A stretch of 64,000 nt of DNA from Oscillospiraceae bacterium (GCA_031269355.1 JAISZG010000074.1:1-64000), one strand, 5' to 3'; counted from the first letter of the stretch, positions 4,849-48,340 are shown. The notes: generated by a model not told the origin, from the letters alone. Numbers and translations are program-made.

Positions 4849-5985
4849 ATGGAAATCTCGGATGTGCGCGCGCGTATCGACGCGCTGGATAATCAAATTG
4901 CCGACCTGTTTGCGGAGCGAATGAAAACCGTCGGCGAGATGGCTACGTATAAAGCGGCGCTTGGCATGCCGGTGTTTGACAGCGCGCGGGAGAGGGATAT
5001 ACTGGCGCGCGTGGCGGAGAGAGTCGGACCCGATCTTGAGATGGCGTCGCGGCGGGTGTTCGAATCGCTGATGGAGGTAAGCCGCGCGCAGCAGCGGCGT
5101 ATGCTGGGCGTTGAAAGCCCGCTGACGGAGCGCATCCGCGCCGCTCTGGAATCGTCGCGGCCGTTCCCTACGAAGGCGTCCGTCGCGTGCCAGGGTACGG
5201 AAGGATCGTACGCGCAGCAGGCGTGCGACTCGCTGTTCCCGTTCGCGCGGATATTATATTTCCAGGATTTCGCGGGAGTGGTAGGCGCGGTAGAGCAAGG
5301 GCTTTGCGAATACGGCGTGCTGCCGATAGAAAACAGCTGGGCGGGATCGGTCGCGCAGGTGTACGATCTGGTGACGAATCGTATGTTCTCCATCGCCCGC
5401 GCGACCAGGCGCGCGGTAGATCACGTGCTGCTCGCGCCAAAGGGCGTTAAGCTTTCCGACGTGCGGCGAGTATACTCGCATCAGCAGGCGCTTTCGCAGT
5501 GCTCGGAATTCCTGCGCGCGCACCCGGCGATGGAACCCGTTCCGTTTGAGAACACTGCGGCGGCTGCGAAGCGCGTATCTAAGGAAGGCGCCGGCGACGA
5601 GGCGGCAATCGCGTCGGGTATATGCGCGTCGCTGTACTCGCTGGAGCCGCTCGCGTACGATATCGCGAACAGCCCCTCCAACACTACCCGCTTTCTATGC
5701 ATACAGCGAGAGATGCGCATCACCCCCGACGCGAACCGCGTCAGCCTTATATTAACTCTGCCGCACAAGCCAGGCGCTCTTTACGCTATGATGGCTCGCT
5801 TCGCCGCGCTCAATATAAACCTTACTAAACTGGAGAGCCGCCCTATTCCCGGAAGCGATTTCCAGTTCCGGTTTCATATCGACCTGGAAGCGGATGTGCG
5901 TGATCCGCGAGTGCTGGGCCTGATGGGCGACCTTGAGCGCAGCGCGGAGCGGATGCAGTTCCTAGGCGCGTATCGCGAATTATGA
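4849..5985 (+). CDS. pheA: Bifunctional chorismate mutase/prephenate dehydratase
   Basis: The protein converts chorismate to prephenate and then phenylpyruvate. From the chosen ATG (4849, five bases after GGAGGTG) it has 378 residues: an AroQ-type chorismate mutase helix bundle (about 1-85), a prephenate dehydratase domain (about 105-285, ending with the catalytic NTTRF) and an ACT domain (about 295-375) with KLESRP and HKPGALY, the Phe-binding motifs. It is a complete P-protein, so feedback inhibition by Phe is expected. The upstream ATG at 4828 has no ribosome site of its own. Its stop overlaps the next start (ATGA). Confidence 0.95.
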   Translation: MEISDVRARIDALDNQIADLFAERMKTVGEMATYKAALGMPVFDSARERDILARVAERVGPDLEMASRRVFESLMEVSRAQQRRMLGVESPLTERIRAALESSRPFPTKASVACQGTEGSYAQQACDSLFPFARILYFQDFAGVVGAVEQGLCEYGVLPIENSWAGSVAQVYDLVTNRMFSIARATRRAVDHVLLAPKGVKLSDVRRVYSHQQALSQCSEFLRAHPAMEPVPFENTAAAAKRVSKEGAGDEAAIASGICASLYSLEPLAYDIANSPSNTTRFLCIQREMRITPDANRVSLILTLPHKPGALYAMMARFAALNINLTKLESRPIPGSDFQFRFHIDLEADVRDPRVLGLMGDLERSAERMQFLGAYREL

Positions 5986-7232
5986 AACGGATTGAGTTTG
6001 GGCTGGTAGGCGAGAAGCTGTCGCATAGCCATTCGCCGCGCATACACCGTATGTTATCAGATTATAAATATGAGCTGATAGAGGTGGATGGAGCTGGCCT
6101 GCGCAAGCTGCTTTCCGCGCGCGAGTTTCGCGGGCTGAACGTTACGATTCCATATAAGGTGGACGCGCTGGAATACTGCGACGTTCTGACGGACGACGCG
6201 CGCGCGGTCGGCAGCGTAAACACGCTCGTAGTGGATCAAGGCGGGCGGCTTATAGGCGATAACACCGATTTATACGGATTCGAGGAACTGGCGCTGCACG
6301 CGGGCATATCGATGGAAAACCGCAAAGCGCTGATACTTGGCAGCGGCGGATCGAGCAGGATGGCTCAGGCGGCGGCTCGGAGGGCGGGCGCGAGGGAGAT
6401 AGTGGTAGTGTCGCGCGGCGGACCCGTCGATTATCAAATAGCCGCAGCTGAACACGATGATGCAGATATAATTATTAATACGACTCCCGTGGGCATGTAT
6501 CCCAATAACGGCGCCGCGCCGGTTCACCTTGCGGATTATCCGCGATGCGCCGGAGTTATCGATTTGATATATAATCCGCTGCGAACCGCGCTGCTGCTTT
6601 CCGCGCGCTCGCGCGGGATACCTTGCGCGGACGGGCTGCCGATGCTGATCGCGCAGGCGCGCCGCGCGGCGCAGCGGTTTACGGGGAATGAAATAGAGCG
6701 GGAGCGCGACGCTGTTATAGACCGCGCGCTGCGCCTGGAGCAGACGAACGTCGTATTAATCGGAATGCCCGGCAGCGGCAAGAGCGCGATAGGGCGAAGG
6801 CTTGCCGACCGTATGCGCCGCCCGTTCGTCGACATTGACGAACGGATCGCGGAGACGGCTGGCGTCGATATCCCCACTATATTCAGCGAACAGGGCGAGG
6901 CCGCGTTCCGCGCGCTGGAGCGCGAAGCGACAGCGGAAGCGGGCAAGCGGCAGGGGCTGGTTATCGCGGTGGGCGGAGGATGCCCGATCGATCCGCGCAA
7001 CGCCGACGCGCTGCGGCAGAACGGCGTATTGATATGGGTGCGCCGTTCGCTTGAACAGTTGGCTACGAGCGGGCGTCCGCTTTCCACCGGACTGGACGCG
7101 CTGCGCGCGATCGAGAAGGCGCGCGAGCCGATCTACCAAAGGACAGGAGACGTTCAGATAGCTAACGACGGCGGCGTAGAGGAAGCCGTAGAGGCTGCTT
7201 TTCAAGCGATAAGCGAGCGGCAGTTTATTTGA
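5982..7232 (+). CDS. aroE-aroK: Fused shikimate dehydrogenase-shikimate kinase
   Basis: One 416-residue chain carries two shikimate-pathway enzymes. Residues 1-250 are AroE: SHSHS (substrate serines), NVTIPYK with catalytic K59, GDNTD with D96, the NADPH loop LGSGGSSR at 119-126 and the INTTPVGM segment. Residues 255-416 are AroK: P-loop GMPGSGKS at 261-268, FVDIDERI, VGGGCP and SGRPLS. No stop or frameshift separates them. The two steps are consecutive, so the fusion may help channel shikimate; that is inference. The ATG overlaps the pheA stop. Separate genes are the rule in most bacteria; other aro fusions such as AroKB are known. Confidence 0.94.
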   Translation: MKRIEFGLVGEKLSHSHSPRIHRMLSDYKYELIEVDGAGLRKLLSAREFRGLNVTIPYKVDALEYCDVLTDDARAVGSVNTLVVDQGGRLIGDNTDLYGFEELALHAGISMENRKALILGSGGSSRMAQAAARRAGAREIVVVSRGGPVDYQIAAAEHDDADIIINTTPVGMYPNNGAAPVHLADYPRCAGVIDLIYNPLRTALLLSARSRGIPCADGLPMLIAQARRAAQRFTGNEIERERDAVIDRALRLEQTNVVLIGMPGSGKSAIGRRLADRMRRPFVDIDERIAETAGVDIPTIFSEQGEAAFRALEREATAEAGKRQGLVIAVGGGCPIDPRNADALRQNGVLIWVRRSLEQLATSGRPLSTGLDALRAIEKAREPIYQRTGDVQIANDGGVEEAVEAAFQAISERQFI

Positions 7233-7269
7233 CAATATTGATAAAACATTGATACAATATCGATATATA
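7229..7269 (+). promoter_or_regulatory. aroQ promoter with phased repeats
   Basis: TTGACA (7229-7234) and TACAAT (7253-7258) are 18 bases apart. The -35 box contains the TGA stop codon of the preceding gene. Three repeats with an 11-base period (ATTGATA at 7237 and 7248, ATCGATA at 7259) lie on the same DNA face across the spacer and start region and could be a repressor or activator site. Confidence 0.7.
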
Positions 7270-7280
7270 AGGAGAACATA

Positions 7281-7724
7281 ATGCGCGTACTCGTTATAAA
7301 CGGCCCGAACCTAAATATGCTGGGGATACGCGAACCAGGCGTATACGGGCGGCGCACATATGAGGAATTGACCGCGTTTATCGAAAGCGCGGCGGCGCGT
7401 ATCGGCGTATCGGCGGAGATATTCCAATCGAATCACGAAGGCGCGATTGTCGATAAGATTCAATCCGCGCTTGGCCGGGCGGACGCTATTGTGATCAATC
7501 CCGCCGCGTATACGCATACCAGCGTTGCGATACTTGACGCGCTGAAAGCGGTAGCACTGCCGTCGGCGGAGGTGCACCTGTCGGATGTGCGCGAGCGCGA
7601 ATCGTTCCGGCAGCTGTCGTACGCGGGCATGGCTTGCGCGCGCTCGTTCATCGGGCTTGGCTTTGACGGATATGCGCGCGCGATCGAATACCTGAAAGAG
7701 TCAATAGAAAATCATAACACATAG
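7281..7724 (+). CDS. aroQ: 3-dehydroquinate dehydratase, type II
   Basis: This small dodecameric enzyme (147 aa, normal length) dehydrates 3-dehydroquinate to 3-dehydroshikimate. Visible are the N-terminal INGPNLNMLGIREPGVYG with catalytic Y22, INPAAYTHTS with N73 and H79, and the AEVHLS segment with H99 and R110. After H99 the usual SN(I/V)H segment reads SDVRERE, so Asn and His are Asp and Arg here, a departure near the lid and substrate site. It completes the shikimate set of the operon but has its own promoter. The ATG follows AAGGAG. Confidence 0.94.
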   Translation: MRVLVINGPNLNMLGIREPGVYGRRTYEELTAFIESAAARIGVSAEIFQSNHEGAIVDKIQSALGRADAIVINPAAYTHTSVAILDALKAVALPSAEVHLSDVRERESFRQLSYAGMACARSFIGLGFDGYARAIEYLKESIENHNT

Positions 7725-7782
7725 ATTATAAAATCAAAAAAATTATGCAGCATCGTCATATGTATTTGGAGGGATTGCGAGC

Positions 7783-8949
7783 ATGTTTTATTTTTCGGAG
7801 CGTTCGGGGGAGTTTACAGAAACCAACATATTTACTATACTTGAGCGCAAGCGCCAGGAACGATTGGCTAAGGGACTGCCGGTATATAACCTGTCCGTCG
7901 GCACGCCGGATTTTCCGCCGGCGCCGCACATAATGAAAGCCGTTCAGGAAGCCGCCGCAGATCCGGAGCAATATAAATACGCGCTGAGCGACGCTCCCGC
8001 GATGACGGAGGCGGTCGCGCGATGGTATTCAAGGCGCTACCAGGTGGAACTGTCGCCGAACGAGATAATGAGCGTGGCGGGTTCTCAGGAGGGAATCGCG
8101 CATTTCTCGTTGGCTGTGCTCAACCCTGGAGACGTGCTGCTGGCGCCTAATCCCGGCTATCCCATATTCGAGATCGGGCCGCGCCTGATGGGCGCGCGCA
8201 CAGCGCTTTACGATTTGCTTCCGGAGAAAGATTATCTGCCGGATCTGGATGAAATCGCGCGGACGATGCCCCCGAACGCGCGCGCGATAATCGTATCGTA
8301 TCCGGCAAACCCGCTTGGCGCGACCGCCCCCGCTTCGTTTTATAAACGCCTTGTCGAGTTCGCCCGCGAACATAAGCTATGGGTTATACATGATAACGCT
8401 TATTCTGAAATCACGTTCGGCGGCGAGGTTGGAGGTTCGTTTCTATCGACGCCCGGCGCGAAGGAAGTAGGGGTGGAATTTAATTCGCTTTCCAAAACAT
8501 ATAATCTTACGGGTACGCGAATTTCGTATCTGATGGGGAATTCGCAATTTATCCGGAGATTTTGCGCCATTCGATCCCAATTCGATTACGGGTTATGCCG
8601 CATATTCCAGGCGGCCGCGATAGCCGCGCTGAATGGGCCGCAGGATGCAGTGATCGAGCAGCGCGCGGAATATGAGCGCCGCCGCGATGCGCTGTGCGGC
8701 GGTTTTCGATCGATCGGCTGGGACATGCCCGACGCGAAGGGGACTATGTTCGCGTGGGGTAAACTGCCCGGCGGGCGTATGGACGACGCGGAGTTTGTGA
8801 TGGAGCTGATAGAAAGATCTGGCGTTATCGTAACGCCGGGCAATATCTTTGGTTCGCGGGGCAGGGGGTATGTACGGTTCGCATTGACGCTGCCGGTTTC
8901 AAAAATAGAACAGGCGGTCGCGGCGGTCTCTCGCAGCGGGCTGGTTTAG
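7783..8949 (+). CDS. Class I PLP aminotransferase (DapL/aspartate aminotransferase-like)
   Basis: A fold-type I aminotransferase of 388 residues. It shows NLSVGTPDFPPAPHI, the NPLG turn, HDNAYSEI and the PLP lysine in NSLSKTYNLTG, followed by the Arg that binds the phosphate. Close families are LL-diaminopimelate, aspartate and aromatic aminotransferases. In relatives the loop after the lysine usually reads TGWRIG; here it is TGTRIS. Its place after the aro genes makes transamination of phenylpyruvate or prephenate attractive, but dapF further on would equally fit a DapL role. Substrate is not settled. The ATG follows GGAGGG; no terminator separates it from aroQ. Confidence 0.85.
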   Translation: MFYFSERSGEFTETNIFTILERKRQERLAKGLPVYNLSVGTPDFPPAPHIMKAVQEAAADPEQYKYALSDAPAMTEAVARWYSRRYQVELSPNEIMSVAGSQEGIAHFSLAVLNPGDVLLAPNPGYPIFEIGPRLMGARTALYDLLPEKDYLPDLDEIARTMPPNARAIIVSYPANPLGATAPASFYKRLVEFAREHKLWVIHDNAYSEITFGGEVGGSFLSTPGAKEVGVEFNSLSKTYNLTGTRISYLMGNSQFIRRFCAIRSQFDYGLCRIFQAAAIAALNGPQDAVIEQRAEYERRRDALCGGFRSIGWDMPDAKGTMFAWGKLPGGRMDDAEFVMELIERSGVIVTPGNIFGSRGRGYVRFALTLPVSKIEQAVAAVSRSGLV

Positions 8950-9034
8950 AGCCTGCCAAGATTCGGCAAATAAAAATGGCTAATAGGAAAATAGACGCTC
9001 GATCATCCGAGCGCGGCAATAGGAGGTTTCATTA

Positions 9035-10075
9035 ATGAAAATGTCATTTCGCTGGTATGGAGAGCGAGATCCGATATCGCTGGAGAAAATCTCGCAAATT
9101 CCCGGAATGCACGGTATAGTAAGCGCGGTGTACGAAGTGCCCGTAGGCCAGGAGTGGCCCGAGGAGCGGATCGACGCGCTGAAATCGCAGGCCGCAGCGC
9201 ATGGCCTTGCGTTTGAGGTGGTCGAAAGCGTGCCCGTGCATGAGCGAATTAAAATGGGCGCGCCGGACGCGGACGCGCTGATCGGCGTATTCGCGGAGAA
9301 TCTGCGCCGCTTGGCGAAGGCTGGCGTAAAGGTAGTGTGCTATAACTTTATGCCCGTGTTCGATTGGCTGCGAAGCGAATTGGCGCGCACGCTGCCGGAT
9401 GGATCGAACGCGCTTGCGTACGACGAGGAAGCTGTGCTCAAGCTGGATCCGTCGAAGGGCGACCTATCGCTGCCGGGCTGGGACGAGAGCTACACGAAGG
9501 AAGAGCTGCGCGCGCTGCTCGATCAATATAAAAATATAAATGATGAAAAGCTCTGGGAAAATATGGAACGGTTCTTAAAGAAAGTTATTCCCGTATGCGA
9601 CGAGGCGGGGATCAAGCTGGCGATACACCCGGACGATCCGCCGTGGAGCCTTTTCGGCTTGCCGCGCATAATAACGGGCGCGAATAGCTACGAGCGGCTG
9701 TTCTCAATCGAGCCGTCGGATTCCAACGGCGTCACGCTGTGCACCGGTTCGCTGGGCGCGGATCCGGCGAACGATCTGCCCGCGATAATCCGCAAGTATG
9801 CGCGGAAGATTCACTTCGTACACGCTCGCAATATACTTATCACGGGCGGCAGGCAATTTCAGGAGAGCGCGCATCCGACGGAATGCGGATCGCTGGATAT
9901 GTACGCGATAATAAAAGCGCTTGTCGAAAGCGGATTCGACGGATATATAAGGCCGGATCACGGGCGGATGATATGGGGTGAAACCGGCAAGCCCGGATAC
10001 GGTTTGTACGATCGCGCGCTTGGCGCGTGCTACTTATCGGGGTTATGGGAAGGTATAAGCAAAACAATATTATAA
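9035..10075 (+). CDS. uxuA: Mannonate dehydratase
   Basis: UxuA removes water from D-mannonate to give 2-keto-3-deoxygluconate in glucuronate breakdown. The 346-residue TIM-barrel protein shows CYNFMPVFDW, HPDDPPW, CTGSLGA, HFVHARN and IRPDHGRMIWGE, which include the metal ligands. Start ATG follows AGGAGG. The sugar kinase for its product is the next gene, 27 bases on. A second, clearly diverged copy lies at 28027. The 85-base gap before it holds only small hairpins (one at 8996-9013). Confidence 0.95.
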   Translation: MKMSFRWYGERDPISLEKISQIPGMHGIVSAVYEVPVGQEWPEERIDALKSQAAAHGLAFEVVESVPVHERIKMGAPDADALIGVFAENLRRLAKAGVKVVCYNFMPVFDWLRSELARTLPDGSNALAYDEEAVLKLDPSKGDLSLPGWDESYTKEELRALLDQYKNINDEKLWENMERFLKKVIPVCDEAGIKLAIHPDDPPWSLFGLPRIITGANSYERLFSIEPSDSNGVTLCTGSLGADPANDLPAIIRKYARKIHFVHARNILITGGRQFQESAHPTECGSLDMYAIIKALVESGFDGYIRPDHGRMIWGETGKPGYGLYDRALGACYLSGLWEGISKTIL

Positions 10076-10102
10076 TAATAAATATAACGGAGGATGATTG
10101 CA

Positions 10103-11128
10103 ATGAAGGCCGTATGCTTTGGAGAATTGATGATGCGGTTGGTGCCGCCGGGTTATTTGCGGATGAATCAAACAGATAAGCTGGAGATGACGTTTGGGGG
10201 AGCGGAGGCGAACGTAGCGGTATCGCTGGCGAACTACGGCGCGGACGCGGTGTACGTGTCGAGGTTTCCAAGTAATCCTATAGGCGAAGTCGCGCTTCAA
10301 TCACTGCGAGCGATGCACGTTGATACGCGGTATATCGCGCGCGGCGGCGATCGGCTGGGCATATATTTCGTGGAGAAAGGCGCGTCGATGCGCCCGTCGA
10401 AGGTAATATACGATCGTAAGTTCTCCAGCATATCTACGATTCAGCCGGGGATGATCGATTGGGACGGCGCGTTCGGCGGCGCCGAATGGTTCCACTGGAC
10501 GGGCATTACGCCCGCGCTTTCCGCAAGCGCAGCCGCAGTTACGCTGGAAGCGTGCAAGGCCGCGAAGGCGAAGGGGATTACGATAAGCTGCGACTTAAAC
10601 TATCGCAAGAACCTGTGGACTCGCGAGCAGGCGAAAAAGATAATGACGGAACTGGTTCAATATGTGGATGTAATGATAGCCAACGAAGAGGACAGCCAGG
10701 ACGTGTTCGGCATATCCGCAGAAGGAACGGATATAGAGGGCGGCAAGCTGAGCGAGGCGGGTTACCGTTCGCTGGCGAGGAAGCTGGCGGATTCGTTTGG
10801 ATGCAAGAAGGTTGCGTTCACGCTTCGCGAAAGTTTTTCGGCGAACGATAACGATTGGTCGGGTTTGCTGTATGACGCGGCCAGCGGCGAAGCTATCCGC
10901 TCGCGCAAGTACAGCATTCGCATAGTCGATAGGGTCGGCGGCGGGGACGCGTTCGGAGGCGGGTTGATATACGCGCTGGCGAGCGGCATGCCGGACGCGG
11001 ACGCGATCAACTTTGCGGCGGCCGCAAGCGCGCTGAAGCACACGATTGAGGGCGATTTCAACCGCGTTACGCTGGACGAGGTTAAGGCGCTGGCGGGCGG
11101 AAGCGTATCCGGCAGGGTGCAGAGATAA
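10103..11128 (+). CDS. kdgK: PfkB-family sugar kinase, probable 2-keto-3-deoxygluconate kinase
   Basis: A ribokinase-family kinase of 341 residues. It begins with CFGELMMRLVPPG and has the family's GGAEANVAVSLANYG sugar-binding loop and the catalytic RVGGGDAFGGGLIYAL near the C-terminus, where GGGD replaces the more common GAGD. The gene follows uxuA, so phosphorylation of 2-keto-3-deoxygluconate is the likely role; an aldolase for the product is not in the window. ATG 10103 is chosen because the upstream ATG at 10094 abuts GGAGG with no spacing. Confidence 0.87.
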   Translation: MKAVCFGELMMRLVPPGYLRMNQTDKLEMTFGGAEANVAVSLANYGADAVYVSRFPSNPIGEVALQSLRAMHVDTRYIARGGDRLGIYFVEKGASMRPSKVIYDRKFSSISTIQPGMIDWDGAFGGAEWFHWTGITPALSASAAAVTLEACKAAKAKGITISCDLNYRKNLWTREQAKKIMTELVQYVDVMIANEEDSQDVFGISAEGTDIEGGKLSEAGYRSLARKLADSFGCKKVAFTLRESFSANDNDWSGLLYDAASGEAIRSRKYSIRIVDRVGGGDAFGGGLIYALASGMPDADAINFAAAASALKHTIEGDFNRVTLDEVKALAGGSVSGRVQR

Positions 11129-30788: not shown

Positions 30789-30813
30789 GATTTTCGTGAG
30801 AAAACTGCATATG

Positions 30814-30922
30814 CCTTATCCAGAGTGGTGGAGGGATTGGGCCCGATGAAACCCGGCAACCGACTTATATGGTTTGGTGCTAAATCCCACGGCGAACTGT
30901 TTTTGTTTGCCGAAAGATGAGG
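30814..30922 (+). promoter_or_regulatory. SAM-I riboswitch (S box) aptamer
   Basis: The conserved elements are in order: CCTTATC (P1 5' side), GAGTGGTGGAGGGATTGGGCC, CGATGAAACCCGGCAACC, a GGTGCTAAATCC stretch, and CGAAAGATGAGG closing P1. Bound S-adenosylmethionine stabilises P1 and frees the terminator downstream, so metK is turned off when SAM is plentiful. Confidence 0.95.
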
Positions 30923-30980
30923 TGGAATTGCGTACGACGCGCGTCCGTTCCACTTTGAATGAGGGAACGGACGCGTTTTT
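30922..30980 (+). terminator. SAM-I riboswitch expression platform
   Basis: A 12-bp terminator stem (30940-30951 with 30964-30975) is followed by TTTTTG. The alternative antiterminator pairs GTGGAA (30922-30927) with TTCCAC (30948-30953), overlapping the P1 3' strand and the terminator's 5' arm, as the mechanism requires. Confidence 0.9.
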
Positions 30981-31042: not shown

Positions 31043-32206
31043 ATGCGCACATTTTTTACCAGCGAATCGGTTACGGAAGGGCATCCCGACAAACTTTGCG
31101 ACCAGATTTCAGACGCGGTTCTGGATGAGCTGCTAACGCTAGACCCAACCGCGCGCGTGGCATGCGAAACATGCGCGACGACTGGGTTAATATTGGTTAT
31201 GGGCGAGGTGACTACGAACGCGTACGCGGACATAGAAGGCGTCGCGAGGCGAGTCGTTAGAAATGTAGGATATACCGACGCGCGCTGCGGCTTCGACGCC
31301 GACACCTGCGGCGTGATAACCGCGCTGCACGGACAATCGCCGGACATCGCGATAGGCGTTAACAAAGCGCTTGAAATCCGCGCCGAGGACGCCCGCAAGG
31401 AAGCGGAGATCGGCGCGGGCGATCAAGGCTCGGTATTTGGATACGCGTGCGACGAAACGCCCGAGCTTATGCCGACGCCTATCACTCTCGCGCATAAAAC
31501 GGCGCGGAAGCTGGCGTCCGCGCGCAAGGATGGAACGCTAGGCTGGCTGCGCCCGGACGGCAAAACGCAGATCACCGTAGAATATGAGGACGGCACGCCG
31601 GTGCGGGTAGATACGGTGGTGATTTCCGCGCAGCATGATCCGTACGCCGATCCCAATGAAATCGAGCGCGCGCTGATTGAACACGTCGCGAAGGCCGCGA
31701 TTCCGGCGGAATTGCTCGACGAGCGCACTCGCTTTATAATCAACCCGACCGGGCGTTTTGTGATAGGCGGCCCTATGGGAGATTCCGGCCTTACCGGGCG
31801 CAAGATAATAGTGGACACATACGGCGGCTTCTCTCGCCATGGCGGCGGAGCGTTTTCCGGGAAGGATCCCACGAAGGTGGATCGCAGCGCGGCGTACGCG
31901 GCGCGCTATCTGGCAAAGAACGTGATAGCCGCAGGGCTGGCGCGGCGCTGTGAAATTCAAATATCATATGCGATAGGCGTAGCTCGCCCTGTATCCGTGT
32001 ATATTGATACGTTCGGAACGGGCAAGATAGGGGATGAGAAGCTGTCGCGAAAACTATCGGATAATTTTGATCTGCGCCCGCGCGCGATAATAGAATCGTT
32101 CAATCTTCGCCGCCCAATATATTTGCCCACGGCCGCCTATGGGCATTTCGGGAGAGAGGATATCGACGCGCCCTGGGAGAAACTTACATTAGCGAACAAG
32201 CTATAA
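31043..32206 (+). CDS. metK: S-adenosylmethionine synthetase
   Basis: MetK makes S-adenosylmethionine from methionine and ATP. The 387-residue protein is full length, with [22 protein letters not shown] (ATP and metal), [18 protein letters not shown], and [23 protein letters not shown] in the C-terminal domain. The ATG follows GGAGGGAAGG. Its own product controls it through the riboswitch upstream. recD2 follows after 19 bases. Confidence 0.97.
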
Positions 32207-41918: not shown

Positions 41919-43454
41919 TCACGCCATGCCCGACGAATCCGCCAGCCTATACGCGAGCGCCTCCGATATATGCCGCGTGCCTATTCTATCCTCGTCCGCG
42001 AGATCCGCTATCGTGCGCGCTACGCGCAGCACTCGGTAGTGGGAACGGGCGGATAGCTGATATCGTTCCGTAGCCAAAGAAAGCACGCGCTGCGGCTCGT
42101 CGTCCAGCGCGCAGATTTCGCGAAGCATTCTGCTATCCAGTTGCGCGTTTGAATATACGCCCACCGACGCGCCTCTGGCTATCTGCCGCGACCGCGCCGC
42201 GTTTACCCGCGCGCGCACCGTCTGCGAATCCTCCGCCTTTGGATCCGGTTCCGACAGCGCTTCTACCGGAACGGATCGTACGGCGACCCGTATATCTATT
42301 CGATCCAGCAGCGGACCGGATACGCGCCCCTGATACTGAGCCACCGACTGCGGAGAGCATCTGCACCGACCGCCTCCCTGCCCGTAATAGCCGCACTTGC
42401 ACGGGTTCATCGCCGCGACGAGCATCACCCGCGCGGGATACGCGTGCTGCGCGCGAACGCGCGATACGAATACCGCGCCGTTTTCCAGAGGCTGACGCAG
42501 CGCTTCCAGCACGCGCGTATCGTACTCCGGAAGTTCGTCCAGAAAAAGAATGCCGTGATGGGCGTATGATATCTCGCCTGGCGACGCGTCTTTGCCGCCG
42601 CCCACCAGCGACGCGGCGGACGCCGTGTGATGCGGGTTGCGGAACGGGCGCTCGGTAAGCATCGAATCCCCGGAAGCAAGGCGCCCCGCAACGCTGTATA
42701 TCCGCGTTACCTCGAGCGCTTCCTCGAACGTCATATCCGGCAGTATGCCGGGCATGCATTCCGCAAGCATTGTTTTTCCGGAACCCGGCGGCCCCACCAT
42801 AAGAAGATTGTGCGCGCCTGCAGCGGCTATCTCAAGCGCGCGCTTGGCCTGCTGCTGGCCGCGCACGTAGCGCAGATCTTTCTCAGGCTTTTTTGAGGAG
42901 CGCAGCGATTCATATGAAACCGCCTCGAGCGGCTCTATCCGCTCCTCGCCGTTCAGGTGCCTTACAACCTGATCGAGCGAGCGCGCCGGAAGCAGTTCCA
43001 CGCGGTTTACGCACTGCACCTCCCGCGTATTCTCCTCCGGAAGTATCATGGCGCGGTACCCTTTTTCGCGCGCGAACAGCGCGCCTGACAGCGCGCCGGG
43101 CGTTTGACGCGTCGAGCCGTCCAACGCCAGCTCGCCGACGAACAATATCCCCCGCGCGGCTTCCGGTTCGATGAAGCCGGACGCAATTAGTATTCCCACG
43201 GCTATCGGAAGATCGTACATCGCGCCTATCTTCTTTATGTTCGCCGGCGCGAGATTCACTACCACGCTCGCGACAGGATATCTCATGCCGCTGTTGCGTA
43301 TCGCCGCGCGCACTCGCTCGTTCGATTCCTTCACCGCCGCGTCCGGCAGCCCGACAAGGGAAAAACGCGGTACTCCGCCGGAACAGTTTACGTCCACGGT
43401 AACAGGATAGCCGTCCATTCCCTCCAGCCCATAGCTCATCACTTGAGCGAACAC
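41919..43454 (-). CDS. comM: YifB/ComM-family AAA+ ATPase (Mg-chelatase-like)
   Basis: The 511-residue protein has an N-terminal Lon-like domain (VDVNCSGGVPRFSLVGLPDAAVKESNERVRAAI), Walker A VGPPGSGKTMLAECMPG, RPFRNPHHTASAASLVGGG, GILFLDELPEY and a C-terminal Mg-chelatase helical domain. ComM in Vibrio and Acinetobacter is a hexameric helicase that helps branch migration during transformation. It lies next to dprA, as in many Bacillota. The start is GTG at 43454 after GGGAGGG. Confidence 0.92.
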   Translation of the reverse strand: MFAQVMSYGLEGMDGYPVTVDVNCSGGVPRFSLVGLPDAAVKESNERVRAAIRNSGMRYPVASVVVNLAPANIKKIGAMYDLPIAVGILIASGFIEPEAARGILFVGELALDGSTRQTPGALSGALFAREKGYRAMILPEENTREVQCVNRVELLPARSLDQVVRHLNGEERIEPLEAVSYESLRSSKKPEKDLRYVRGQQQAKRALEIAAAGAHNLLMVGPPGSGKTMLAECMPGILPDMTFEEALEVTRIYSVAGRLASGDSMLTERPFRNPHHTASAASLVGGGKDASPGEISYAHHGILFLDELPEYDTRVLEALRQPLENGAVFVSRVRAQHAYPARVMLVAAMNPCKCGYYGQGGGRCRCSPQSVAQYQGRVSGPLLDRIDIRVAVRSVPVEALSEPDPKAEDSQTVRARVNAARSRQIARGASVGVYSNAQLDSRMLREICALDDEPQRVLSLATERYQLSARSHYRVLRVARTIADLADEDRIGTRHISEALAYRLADSSGMA

Positions 43455-43496: not shown

Positions 43497-43916
43497 TCAT
43501 AAATCGGAACGCGCGTCCCCCGCATAATGTCGAAACACGAACAGCTTGCTCCCAGTAAAGTTAACCACCGCAGAGAAAGCCGCCGCGATCAGCCCGGCGG
43601 CCGCTTTGCTTATCGCAAGCGTTCCGGTAAGCCAGCCGATCAGCGCGGTGGACAGCGCGAGCGTAACCAGGTTCATCAATATAAATCTAACCGTTTGACC
43701 GATCGACGGCCTGGCCTTCTGCCGGAATGTCCAGCGCGTATTGATAATCAGCCCGGACGCCATCCCTGCCGCGTATCCTATAGCCCACGCGGCAGGCTCG
43801 TTCAGCCTGTTCAATGCGAAGTATACCAGATATGTTATTCCCGTATTCAGCAAGCCGACTATCCCAAATCGAAACATTTGCCCGATCAGAGCGGCAATAC
43901 TCTCACGCGTCGGCAT
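43497..43916 (-). CDS. GtrA-family membrane protein
   Basis: A small protein (139 aa) with four predicted membrane helices and GtrA signatures (FGIVGLLNTGITYLVYFALNRL near the N-terminus, NTRWTF in the middle, NFTGSKLFVFRH at the end). GtrA proteins are thought to flip or carry undecaprenyl-phosphate-linked sugars across the membrane. It lies 45 bases after the giant glycosyltransferase, which would need such a lipid-linked donor on the outer face, so the two probably work together. Confidence 0.85.
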   Translation of the reverse strand: MPTRESIAALIGQMFRFGIVGLLNTGITYLVYFALNRLNEPAAWAIGYAAGMASGLIINTRWTFRQKARPSIGQTVRFILMNLVTLALSTALIGWLTGTLAISKAAAGLIAAAFSAVVNFTGSKLFVFRHYAGDARSDL

Positions 43917-43961
43917 AACAAACCTCTCATCTCTTTCGATATATATTATTAAATATTATAA

Positions 43962-46900
43962 TTAAAACCACATCCATCCCGCATACGCCCATCCCGGCAG
44001 ATACAATCCGGAGAACCAGTTCATCGCCTGCGCCCACGCGCGCGGCATTAGAGCGCCCGTGGCAAACGGATAGAACCCCACGAACAGCAGCGCGGCTGCG
44101 GCTGCCAGCGCGGCTGCCGCCAGCGACACAAGCTTCTTCCGACGCGGCGTGCGCAGCGCACGGTCGACGGCGGACGCGCGTTCATACATGCGAACGAAAC
44201 CCCATACGATGCACAGCATTACAAACGGCGTGCTTGCGAAATAGTGATATATGAACGTAGAGCGCGGAACAAGCACCCATGGCATGAACTGCGCTAGGAA
44301 TCCCACCAGCAAAAGCCCGGGCGTCGAATCGCCGTCCGCGCGGTCCAACCGTATCCCGCGCGATACATGCCCTTTAAACCAGCGGATTATAACGGCGATC
44401 AGCGCGATAAAGCCCGTCCACCACACCGCCGGGTTGCCGAACGCGAGTATCGTCGACACCATTCCGTCGGGTTCATAGTGCCCCTGATAATACCACATGG
44501 GCTTGAGTATCAGCGGCCATTCCCACCACTTCGACTTGAACGGGTGGGTATCCACCAAATGGCTGTGATAGTTGTACATCGACGCTTGCAGGTCTATTAC
44601 GCGCTTGATCGTATACGGCCCGGTGGCGGTAAGCTCGGGTATATAGCTGAGCAGATACACCGCTGCGGGCACTATAATAAACCACAGCACGCACCACAAT
44701 ATGGTGATAATCATGCGGCGCGGATACGCGGCGACCGCCTGGCTTTCCTCCGCGCCCGCGCTGATTCCATAAATATATTCCCTCAGCCGCATGCCGAACG
44801 ACCAGAAAAGCACTACCGCCAAACCTGCAGCCGCGTATATGCCTATCCATTTGCTCGCGATGGCCCCCGCCATAAACAGCCCGGACAGAGCCAGCGGAAC
44901 GAGCGTTCTGCCAAGCCCGTCGCGGAAGAAGCTCATCTTCCAGTAGCGGTACATGCACGCGTACATCAGCATAATGAACAGCACCGGATAGCTGTCGATC
45001 GTCGCGATGCGCGTCTGCGCCAGATGCATGCAATCCGCCGCGAGCAGGAACGCCGCAAGCAGCGCCCAGCGAGTTTTTTTGAAAAGCTGCTTGCCAAGGA
45101 AATACATGGCCGGTATCATGAGCACTCCCGCCAGCGTTCCGGGGAATCTCCACGCGAACGGCGTCATGCCCATAAGCGATATGGACAGCATTATGAACAC
45201 CTTGCCAAGCGGCGGATGGCTCCACTCCAGCACGGACATTTTGTGCAGATATTCGTAGCCGGTGCGCGCGTGGTATATCTCGTCGAAGTATGTGCCGTTC
45301 ATGTAGCCGGGCTGATCGGGAACGGTATTCGGCTCGTCGATCAGTTTGGTCACATCGTTGGCTCCGACCTCGCGAGGGTTCTCGTCTATCACCTCGTTCA
45401 CGCTGAGTATGTTCCCATCGAGATCGCGCAGCGCGACCTCGAACAGCATCACGCCCGGCGCGTCGGGTATTATTCGAACATAGCGCGCGGTGAACAATTG
45501 GGGTATATCATCGTTATACGAAACCGCCCCGTCGGCGCTTTGCGTAGAATAGACCACGTACTTCCAGCGGAAGCATTCCGATTCGACGGACGCGGGCATA
45601 GGCGTCGTCCAGGTTTCGCCATCCTCGCTCGCGGTTATCTTTATGTCCGACGACGATATTCCATTATAATATAATATCTGAAACGACTTCGTTTCCCCAA
45701 GATCGAACAGTACGGACTCGCTGGTTCCGGACGAGCGCCACCAGGTTTGCGGCGCGATGTGCGATCCAAGCCCCGTAAACGCGACGACCGCGTATACTCC
45801 GGTTAGCGCGAGCATCAGCGCCCAATCGAGCGGGCGAAAATTCAGCCGCGCGTCGGATTTCCCCAATATGCGCTCGCTGATACCGGCTGAAACCGCCGAT
45901 CGCTCCGCATTACTACTATCAATATAATAATTATTTGCGTCCTCCGTCGACGCGAAGCCCCACTCGCGAGTTCTGCCGACGACGCAAATCTCCCAGCCCG
46001 TCCAGAACGCGAGCGCGCCGAGCAGCAGATTAATCGCGGACAGTACGCAGCCTATCGCGTGAAGCGCGCCGTACATCAAGTGCTCGTTGCGCAGCACCAG
46101 CCACACGTTAAAGAACATAGTCACGCTAAGCCCGATAGATAGCCACAGCAGCCGCCCGTCCCGTTTGGCCGAATAAGCGGCCAGGAAGAACACGATAGCG
46201 GGTAACAGATACCTTTCGTGCATCCGATATCCAAACAGGAAAAATCCAAGGAACGTAAGCCCTGCCGCCAGGAATAGAGAATTCAAGCTGCGCGACTTGA
46301 TATACAGCGCGAACGTTGCCGCAAGCGTCAGCGCCATAAGTATAATGGCTATAGAGGCGTATGATATCGAGCCTATTGCGGCGGCTCCACTCGCAACCCA
46401 GTTACCGCCCATTAAATAATATAGATTAACAGCGTTTATAGTGGCATAGTCGTATGATGCCATCGTGCCCAGGTATTTGCCCGGCAGCCACGCCCAGCCC
46501 GAGCGGATAGTAAACGGGAGAATCAGCAGGAAACACGCGGCAAGCCCAATACCGGCTCCAAGCAGCGCGCGCCTTATCGCTCCGGCATCCCACTTTAGCT
46601 CGCGTAAATGCAATATAACGGCGAGCAGCCCCAGCGGCCCCAGCATCAGCGCCTGCGGCTTTATTAATACCGTCAGCATATATATCGGGATAGCGGCGCG
46701 CATATCGGATTTGCTGGCGCGCCAAACGGTAAGCGCGAGGCCGAGCGCCAGCAGGCAGTCGATCTGCCCCCACGCCGCGCCTGTCGCGACTATCGCGGGG
46801 CTGAACGCGTACAGCGCCGCAAGCGCGAACCCGACGCGGTTATCATTTTTATTATTCCCGATATGCCACAGCGCGGCTATCGCGGCCAAATCGAATATAA

Positions 46901-47936
46901 TGGGAGGCAGCTTTACGAGCAGCTCCATCTCCGACGTTTCCGCCGACACGCCCACCGCGCGTATAAGCCAGCCTATCGGCCAAAGGAAGTACATATATCC
47001 GGGAGGATAATCGCAGAAATAATCGCCCTGGTAAAAATCCGCCGGGCCTACCTGCGCGATGCGCAGCGCCCACGCGTGGAAGCAGCCTATATCAACGCCG
47101 TATCCCGCAACGAAATACGCGACCGCAATGCGCAGCACGGCGGCGGCGCCAAGTATTATCATAAGCGCGGCCAACGATCCCCCGCGCGGACGCGCCTTCA
47201 TCACAATGAAAACAACCGCCGCGAACAGCGGGATGATAAGCCACAGCAGCGAACCGTTTGTTGGAGCGCCGGAATTCTGCGCGGGAGAGGACGGCGCGGA
47301 CAGCTCGACCGCCAATTCTCCGGGCAACGGCGCGTCGGCTTGTTCAAGCGACAGATCGTCAAACCACGCGACGCCCGTCGTTTCGTTGGAATAGCCGCCC
47401 AGCCGCGCGGCTATATTCGCGCTTCGCTGCCCGGCATATGTTTTAAAATATATAGTCCACTCTTCCCAAGCGCCTGCGGTATCGTAAAGCGAAGGCACTA
47501 CGGAATATGAACCCAGAACGGACAGGTTGGCGCCGGTGCCCTCGGTATCGCACCCTTCCGCGCGGATTAATCCCGAGAGTTTGTACCATTGATTAGGCTC
47601 GACGGACACGGTTTGCGTAAACCGCGCGTCGTTGGAACTAACGTTCTCAATCCGCGCGACGCTGCTGCCCGATTGTTCGTCCCGCACTATTTCAAGGTAG
47701 CTGGCGCCGTAGTCCGTAACCCACATATCCCTGTACCAATACGCGGGCTGCCCGTCGTCTGCGCTCTCGAATCCGCCGTTCTTCAGCAGATTTACCGCCT
47801 GCGACTGTTCGGCGCATCCTGTAGATAATACAATAATAGATAATATTATATATCCGAAAAAAATCGCCGCGAACTTCTTTGCCGTTTGGTTGACTTTCCA
47901 TATCCGCAGATTGCGCGGCGCATTCTTTCGACTCAT
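43962..47936 (-). CDS. Giant membrane glycosyltransferase: two GT-C modules with CBM- and discoidin-like domains
   Basis: The chosen ATG (47936, after GGAGGG) gives 1324 residues. An N-terminal lipoprotein-like signal ends in VLSTGC (Cys41). A carbohydrate-binding-like domain (NLLKNGGFESADDGQPAYW, about 48-205) follows, then a first multi-helix GT-C module (about 230-640, with FYQGDYFCDYPPGYMYF). Next is a discoidin/F5-8-like outside domain (about 715-830), then a second module like protein O-mannosyltransferases (about 870-1324, YFDEIYHARTGYEYL and WSHPPLGKVF). It probably moves sugars from a lipid carrier to surface proteins or glycans. It interrupts an otherwise conserved order between yraN and yifB. 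Domain borders are approximate. Confidence 0.82.
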   Translation of the reverse strand: MSRKNAPRNLRIWKVNQTAKKFAAIFFGYIILSIIVLSTGCAEQSQAVNLLKNGGFESADDGQPAYWYRDMWVTDYGASYLEIVRDEQSGSSVARIENVSSNDARFTQTVSVEPNQWYKLSGLIRAEGCDTEGTGANLSVLGSYSVVPSLYDTAGAWEEWTIYFKTYAGQRSANIAARLGGYSNETTGVAWFDDLSLEQADAPLPGELAVELSAPSSPAQNSGAPTNGSLLWLIIPLFAAVVFIVMKARPRGGSLAALMIILGAAAVLRIAVAYFVAGYGVDIGCFHAWALRIAQVGPADFYQGDYFCDYPPGYMYFLWPIGWLIRAVGVSAETSEMELLVKLPPIIFDLAAIAALWHIGNNKNDNRVGFALAALYAFSPAIVATGAAWGQIDCLLALGLALTVWRASKSDMRAAIPIYMLTVLIKPQALMLGPLGLLAVILHLRELKWDAGAIRRALLGAGIGLAACFLLILPFTIRSGWAWLPGKYLGTMASYDYATINAVNLYYLMGGNWVASGAAAIGSISYASIAIILMALTLAATFALYIKSRSLNSLFLAAGLTFLGFFLFGYRMHERYLLPAIVFFLAAYSAKRDGRLLWLSIGLSVTMFFNVWLVLRNEHLMYGALHAIGCVLSAINLLLGALAFWTGWEICVVGRTREWGFASTEDANNYYIDSSNAERSAVSAGISERILGKSDARLNFRPLDWALMLALTGVYAVVAFTGLGSHIAPQTWWRSSGTSESVLFDLGETKSFQILYYNGISSSDIKITASEDGETWTTPMPASVESECFRWKYVVYSTQSADGAVSYNDDIPQLFTARYVRIIPDAPGVMLFEVALRDLDGNILSVNEVIDENPREVGANDVTKLIDEPNTVPDQPGYMNGTYFDEIYHARTGYEYLHKMSVLEWSHPPLGKVFIMLSISLMGMTPFAWRFPGTLAGVLMIPAMYFLGKQLFKKTRWALLAAFLLAADCMHLAQTRIATIDSYPVLFIMLMYACMYRYWKMSFFRDGLGRTLVPLALSGLFMAGAIASKWIGIYAAAGLAVVLFWSFGMRLREYIYGISAGAEESQAVAAYPRRMIITILWCVLWFIIVPAAVYLLSYIPELTATGPYTIKRVIDLQASMYNYHSHLVDTHPFKSKWWEWPLILKPMWYYQGHYEPDGMVSTILAFGNPAVWWTGFIALIAVIIRWFKGHVSRGIRLDRADGDSTPGLLLVGFLAQFMPWVLVPRSTFIYHYFASTPFVMLCIVWGFVRMYERASAVDRALRTPRRKKLVSLAAAALAAAAALLFVGFYPFATGALMPRAWAQAMNWFSGLYLPGWAYAGWMWF

Positions 47937-47983
47937 AAACCCTCCGCTATTGCGCTGAGACCCGCGCCGTCCCGCGCGGCGCG

Positions 47984-48340
47984 TCAAATGTCGACCGCTT
48001 CGAACGCGTTTCGCCAATGAACTATTCTGCCGCCATAAACTTCGATCACGTCGAACCGCGACGGCGCGTCCGACAAATCGCGCTCCTCCAGAAAGGCGCA
48101 GGCCGCGCGGGCGACGCGCGCCTGCTTGAGCGGCGTCACCGCCTCGCGCGGGTATCCGTGCGCTATGTCCGAGCGCGCCTTCACCTCGACGAACACCACG
48201 CGATAACCGCTCAGAGCCACAATGTCTATCTCCCCCGCGCGTACCCTATAGTTGCGCGCGAGTATTTTGTATCCTTTTGCCTCAAGAAACGCGACCGCTT
48301 GATCCTCCGCGTATTGTCCAAACGCGCCGCGCCTGGTCAC
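47984..48340 (-). CDS. yraN: YraN/UPF0102 family nuclease-like protein
   Basis: A small protein with the restriction-endonuclease-like fold: GQYAEDQAVAFLEAKGYKILARNYR, GEIDIVAL and VVFVEVKAR supply the acidic and Lys residues. Function is unproven; it always sits near rnhB. I chose GTG at 48340, overlapping the rnhB stop as GTGA, giving 118 residues; a TTG at 48364 in the same frame is an alternative. Neither has a clear ribosome site, which fits coupling to rnhB translation. Confidence 0.88.
   Translation of the reverse strand: MTRRGAFGQYAEDQAVAFLEAKGYKILARNYRVRAGEIDIVALSGYRVVFVEVKARSDIAHGYPREAVTPLKQARVARAACAFLEERDLSDAPSRFDVIEVYGGRIVHWRNAFEAVDI

Follow-up and report, generated by a model that had tools for sequence, protein, structure and literature searches.

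The window analysed is a 64,000-nucleotide stretch of the genome of an Oscillospiraceae bacterium (2.47 Mb in 102 contigs, 91% complete). A gene for a 1324-residue protein with two GT-C glycosyltransferase modules, followed by a GtrA family gene, lies there between yraN and yifB (Table 1); ORF coordinates and Pfam assignments agree with the sequence-only reading on this point. The genes are read head to tail from the minus strand in the order rnhB-yraN-PMT-GtrA-yifB-dprA-topA, where PMT denotes the double GT-C gene, present in a single copy in the host genome. Its ATG (47936) is immediately preceded by GGAGGG and its ORF ends at 43962. Spacing around the double GT-C and GtrA genes is ~45 nt, GtrA lying ~45 nt past the double GT-C stop. 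A terminator scan of the region performed no better than on shuffled sequences and the promoter scan was weak, so that the operon call rests on spacing and conservation. The GtrA product scores 76.8 bits against Pfam GtrA_DPMS_TM (cut-off 26.1), which places it in the GtrA family. Elsewhere in the window, an ordinary SAM riboswitch (30813-30923, plus strand) is found 5′ of metK (31043-32206).

Table 1. Genes and protein features of the double GT-C locus, and coordinates of split homologues in their own loci.
Feature	Position	Strand	Basis or remark
Double GT-C glycosyltransferase, 1324 aa	43962..47936	-	ORF; GGAGGG ribosome-binding site; full-length homologues at ~100 loci
GtrA-family flippase candidate, 139 aa	43497..43916	-	Pfam GtrA_DPMS_TM 1.9e-21
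yraN (UPF0102), upstream neighbour	47984..48340	-	Pfam UPF0102 1.6e-28
yifB (Mg-chelatase-like ATPase), downstream neighbour	41919..43454	-	NCBIfam TIGR00368 570 bits, above cut-off
CBM4/16-like jelly-roll, extracytoplasmic, residues 46-206, after hydrophobic signal segment	47319..47801	-	Structural alignment and profile
Module 1, GT-CB fold transferase, residues 255-653	45978..47174	-	Structural alignment, motifs
Linker between modules, predicted cytosolic, residues 654-701	45834..45977	-	Between last module 1 helix and module 2 TM1; topology inferred
Module 2, protein O-mannosyltransferase-like GT39 module, residues 702-1324	43965..45833	-	Pfam, fold, profile
CBM32/discoidin-like beta-sandwich, residues 725-853, extracellular loop 1 of module 2	45378..45764	-	Model
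PMT catalytic DE motif, D885-E886	45279..45284	-	Aligns with Pmt1 D77-E78
Split genes, L045 (order member)	7909-9354 + 5974-7899		One gene per module
Split genes, L149 (order member)	4871-6319 + 6335-8359		One gene per module
Split genes, L169 (Paenibacillus-like genome)	6156-8411 + 8356-10179		One gene per module

The structure of the chain was predicted in two halves, each from an 18-sequence alignment. The AlphaFold model of the N-terminal half (residues 22-665; pLDDT 85, pTM 0.71) begins with a carbohydrate-binding-like jelly-roll. Its closest structural match is the CBM of pneumococcal hyaluronate lyase (4d0q; Z 17.0, profile match 5.6e-7 in the PDB profile search), followed by CBM4/CBM16 domains (Z 13.4-13.8). 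The lipoprotein-type start proposed earlier did not survive comparison with homologues: the STGC motif (C41) is not conserved and a lipobox-like motif occurs within the first 70 residues of only 5 of 102 of them, which makes an ordinary signal peptide or anchor the likelier reading. No Pfam family matches the N-terminal half, nor does module 1 match any family in Pfam or NCBIfam. Its fold was recognized by structural alignment, with ALG6 (Z 27.0, 3.2 Å over 390 residues) and ALG3 (25.7) as best matches, followed by GPI mannosyltransferase 1 (PIG-M; 23.8) and PimE (19.7). The PDB profile search agrees (PIG-M type 2.9e-10, ALG6 0.0025). Module 1 features D282 in loop 1, WGQxD at 389-393 and MHERY at 572-576. 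In the model it thereby combines a GT-CB fold with a loop-1 aspartate, which, from the ALG6 motif and its position in the predicted loop, we take to be the probable equivalent of the ALG6 catalytic Asp.

The C-terminal half (686-1324) was modelled with a pLDDT of 86 and a pTM of 0.90. Module 2 is PMT-like, as had been suggested from the sequence. It scores above cut-off against Pfam PMT_4TMC (3e-28; 99.1 bits, cut-off 32.4), PMT (37.5 bits, cut-off 22.7) and PMT_2 (48.7 bits, cut-off 26.1), matches Pmt4 in the profile search (2.4e-23) and superposes on Pmt4/Pmt2 with Z 33.5-35.2 (rmsd 2.5-2.9 Å over 427-432 residues), the next-best fold being ArnT (Z 25.9). With 61.4 bits it stays below the 800 of the NCBIfam bacterial Pmt equivalog NF058602; judged by this score it is related to that group but not an orthologue of it. 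In the alignment to Pmt1, R930 corresponds to R138, D981 to D189 and R1225 to R649, numbers counted from the printed alignment. Mutagenesis of MtPMT identified D74, D176, R441 and Y444 as essential (PMC12331936). Module 2 has equivalents of the first three, while the Y444 position is occupied in its family by F (F1228 here) or Y, as in yeast Pmt1/Pmt2. The discoidin-like domain, previously placed between the two modules, is in fact nested in loop 1 of module 2: the segment bounded by TM1 (702-720) and the DE motif (885-886) contains its strands (742-851 in the model). The domain resembles the CBM32 of AlyQ (Z 9.1), with a Pfam F5_F8_type_C score of 21.9 bits that is below cut-off. The expected pair of carbohydrate-binding-like domains is thus present, in a different order. 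Compared to the eukaryotic PMT1/2/4 enzymes, with which it shares the fold, the DE motif and the R138/D189/R649 equivalents, module 2 lacks a MIR domain, has a CBM32 in loop 1 instead, and is fused to a second enzyme.

Pfam, the PDB profile searches and the structural alignment of the two modelled halves concur that two GT-C modules are present in one chain. Since the best matches of module 1 (ALG6 group) and module 2 (Pmt4/Pmt2) differ, the models assign to this chain both GT-C structural subclasses, GT-CB and GT-CA. An origin of the pair by duplication within the chain was rejected because the modules have different best folds and no significant profile similarity (8% probability), and a single catalytic module because both folds and both conserved catalytic residue sets are found. 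Among 102 aligned fused proteins, 100 have every catalytic site aligned, and in all 100 the positions D282, H573-E574-R575, D885-E886, D981 and R1225 are intact. Taken singly, D282 is invariant in 101/101 sequences and D885-E886 in 102/102; D981 and R1225 are invariant, and the module 1 motif residues are invariant or nearly so (n = 102). This conservation makes it probable that both modules are active. At the same yraN-yifB site, five other families of the order encode distantly related proteins of ~700-900 aa formed by the CBM and module 1 only (L065, L066, L067, L068 and L069, in genomes G043, G041, G037, G047 and G050, respectively). WGQxD and MHERY are lost in L065 and L067, the two that were aligned. 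These proteins may have changed function, and the loss of motifs indicates that module 1 need not stay conserved in the way it has in the fused proteins.

The search for the same architecture, proposed by the sequence-only reading, returned ~100 Firmicute loci coding the fused protein; such an identical organization in independent loci rules out an assembly artefact or chimera. Homologues were detected in 54 of 60 relatives. Outside Paenibacillaceae, where the named carriers are Christensenellales-type MAGs, 51 unique fused loci had enough flanking sequence: rnhB/yraN is upstream in 45, and 36 of the 51, from many families, have in addition yifB downstream. The yraN-(double GT-C)-yifB site is therefore ancestral, at least at the order level. 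Ancestry of this gene order, in the class, was one of the outcomes that the sequence-only reading had named as refuting it, and the view of a recent or unusual insertion into the rnhB-dprA region has to be abandoned. Paenibacillaceae carry the double GT-C gene at another, unrelated locus. In the phylum as a whole its distribution is patchy: 17 genomes of a 249-genome sample, host included, had any match at 1e-20, mostly to one module only. Quick trees of each module (SH-aLRT only) group the fused forms similarly and require 4-6 state changes, most of which could be explained by subsequent splitting or loss; the Caldicellulosiruptor-type sequences sit on long branches, and these trees do not settle whether the fusion had a single origin.

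Several variants of the architecture were found. The two modules are encoded by adjacent genes in L045, L149, L062 and L169. Paralogues with the CBM and discoidin-PMT parts but devoid of module 1 (L054 3925-6864, 979 aa; L056 6057-8768, 903 aa) occur in genomes that also encode the full double enzyme. Some Paenibacillus forms lack the N-terminal CBM, and a 1611-aa version (L061 6088-10923, minus strand) has two discoidin domains ahead of the PMT module. In other Bacillota (L161-L164, L166, L173) a lone module 1 is found near GT2, GtrA and a large membrane protein which, in the case inspected (L163), is a PMT_2 protein with a YkcB_C domain. The same components seem to be combined there in a different way. 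As module 1 occurs there without module 2, it can act outside a PMT context.

A GT2 enzyme, a flippase and a GT-C enzyme constitute a transmembrane glycosylation system (PMC8035078), and the host genome encodes all three components. No GT2 donor synthase gene is present within the window. It is found on contig 93 (L157 6118-7143, minus strand), between a mazG/spoVB pair and hup. Its product is 49% identical to the GT2 of the Paenibacillus operon and is PgfS/CsbB-like, PgfS being its best NCBIfam match, below cut-off. Contig 65 codes a second GtrA, fused to a GT2. The link to a carrier flippase proposed from the gene order is supported by the unrelated Paenibacillaceae locus, where among 25 loci with enough flank a GT2 gene is directly downstream of the double GT-C gene in 13 and GtrA in 12, and where consecutive double GT-C, GT2 and GtrA genes are seen.

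By analogy, the strongest functional anchor for the double GT-C protein is a Caldicellulosiruptor-type locus. Two loci (L159, L160) code GH5, GH9-CBM3-GH5, GT39, GT-CB, a WG-repeat protein, a PPIase and GH74-type-CBM3, a content that, together with the 1701-bp length of the GT39 gene, matches the Cbes_1861-1864 cluster of Caldicellulosiruptor bescii; the genus was assigned from this gene content and the published gene sizes. PMT and module-1 homologues are here neighbouring separate genes, and they are the only matches to the double protein in each of three Caldicellulosiruptor-type genomes. Cbes_1864 (GT39) is reported to carry a CBM-like domain in loop 1; once the gene was deleted, neither detectable protein glycosylation nor growth on crystalline cellulose remained (PMC6151902). 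The likeness to Cbes_1864/Cbes_1863 resides in the PMT with a loop-1 CBM-like domain and in the module-1 homologue that immediately follows it in the matching locus. Those are, however, two genes of a cellulase locus without N-terminal CBM, whereas the protein described here is one chain, encoded in a housekeeping operon and 27-30% identical to the Caldicellulosiruptor-type products. A galactose disaccharide on C. bescii CelA is cited, with doubt, in a 2025 review (PMC12757957). A pairing of initiator and elongator would fit a disaccharide on the Caldicellulosiruptor protein.

Other known systems share part of this organization. In Mycobacterium, PimE elongates the O-mannose after PMT (PMC12757957). 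The mycobacterial/actinobacterial PMT and PimE (GT87) likewise form a GT39 initiator with a second GT-C elongator, using polyprenyl-phosphate-mannose, but they are separate proteins without CBMs, and module 1, despite sharing the PimE fold, is closer to ALG6. The Streptococcus mutans Pgf system (PgfS-PgfM1-PgfE-PgfM2) resembles the present set in its CsbB-like GT2 and two GT-C-type membrane proteins, which were proposed to act sequentially on surface adhesins (PMC5856776). These are two mutually similar PMT_2-type proteins, in contrast to the fused GT-CB and GT39 modules, which have no detectable similarity. Systems of the CsbB-GtcA-YfhO type follow the same GT2, GtrA and GT-C logic with a single GT-C that modifies teichoic acids. 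No double GT-C is listed in the tables of PMC8035078, and no description of a fused PMT was found in the literature searched, which is not proof of novelty. The pairing of initiator and elongator was previously known only as separate genes.

We propose, with a probability of about 0.6, that the double GT-C protein serves in extracytoplasmic protein O-glycosylation as initiator and elongator fused into one. This reading is favoured by the Caldicellulosiruptor-type locus, by PimE elongation, by the S. mutans pair and by host proteins, exported or anchored in the membrane, whose TPTPTP linkers resemble those of CelA (nine pattern matches versus none in a reversed control). Its starting points are the computed folds, the conserved catalytic sets, the host GT2 and the conserved GtrA/GT2 neighbourhood, from which we infer a protein acceptor, the sugar, which step comes first and what the CBMs do. 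The GT2 of contig 93 would charge cytoplasmic polyprenyl phosphate with a hexose and GtrA would flip the polyprenyl-phosphate hexose. Initiation, the transfer of one sugar to Ser/Thr of an exported protein, would be carried out by the PMT module via D885/E886, D981 and R1225; extension by one or more sugars, taken from a lipid donor of the same type, would be the task of the N-terminal GT-CB module. Both the CBM at the N-terminus and the loop CBM32 might keep the growing glycan or glycoprotein near both active sites. Some observations weigh against the proposal: GtrA is not at the double GT-C locus in most relatives, the NF058602 score of module 2 is far below cut-off, module 1 is also found without module 2 in other Bacillota, the acceptor cannot be read off the GT-C fold and catalytic residues, and TP-rich linkers occur widely in Firmicutes irrespective of glycosylation.

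The acceptor could instead be a wall polymer to which the CBMs bind, an alternative that we consider unlikely, although it is the main rival. The GtrA/GT2 pairing is typical of such systems, the characterized GtrA-linked Firmicute GT-C enzymes acting mostly on teichoic acids or wall polysaccharides (PMC8035078); large CBM-bearing GT-C enzymes (AftD, EmbC, GT136) act on polysaccharides, and the nearest matches of the N-terminal CBM are modules that bind polysaccharides. Nonetheless, the PMT match of module 2 (Z 33-35) is far better than that to any other GT-C enzyme (next best ArnT, ~26), the characterized GT39 members in the literature consulted modify proteins, and protein glycosylation depends on the relative from Caldicellulosiruptor (PMC6151902).

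It is less probable still that two independent reactions are merely tethered, module 2 acting on proteins and module 1 on a lipid-linked glycan or wall polymer, so that the fusion shares only donor supply or localization. ALG6 and ALG3 do act on lipid-linked oligosaccharides, and the occurrence in other Bacillota of module 1 by itself, with GT2-GtrA and a YkcB-like GT-C as neighbours, speaks for this reading. The long-lasting fusion, and the adjacency of the two genes where they are separate (Caldicellulosiruptor-type) or split, suggest rather a single pathway. Of the earlier proposal of a "processive or two-sugar" surface glycosylation machine, the two-sugar part remains the best fit, while the processive part is not supported: modules alternating to polymerize a long repeating glycan would account for a chain with a pair of transferases and a pair of glycan-binding domains, but are highly improbable because no element for polymer translocation or chain length was seen, GT-C enzymes with monosaccharide lipid donors usually add single sugars, and short glycans are reported for the related Caldicellulosiruptor and mycobacterial systems (PMC12757957).

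Fused initiation and elongation may point to a general mode of Firmicute protein O-glycosylation by a two-step machine, an extension to which we give slightly less than even odds. O-glycans would be assembled by a single chain in Christensenellales-type Clostridia and Paenibacillaceae, with a GT-CB elongator and a GT-CA (PMT) initiator side by side, the glycan being passed between the two sites with the help of built-in CBMs. Bacterial protein O-mannosylation seemed restricted to Actinomycetota in a 2025 study (PMC12331936), and the extension of O-glycans is still an open question in most bacteria. A proposed initiator and elongator joined in one chain, with conserved catalytic sites, in Paenibacillus that can be cultured and in lineages common in the gut puts both questions within direct reach of experiment. 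The enzyme can be used to ask which proteins are glycosylated, with which glycan, and whether the two GT-C sites hand on their substrate. A good candidate acceptor for O-glycosylation is an exported-looking host protein (L185 around 1500-1600; contig 98:23274) that has a long repeat linker (TPTPKPTATPTPKPTA...).
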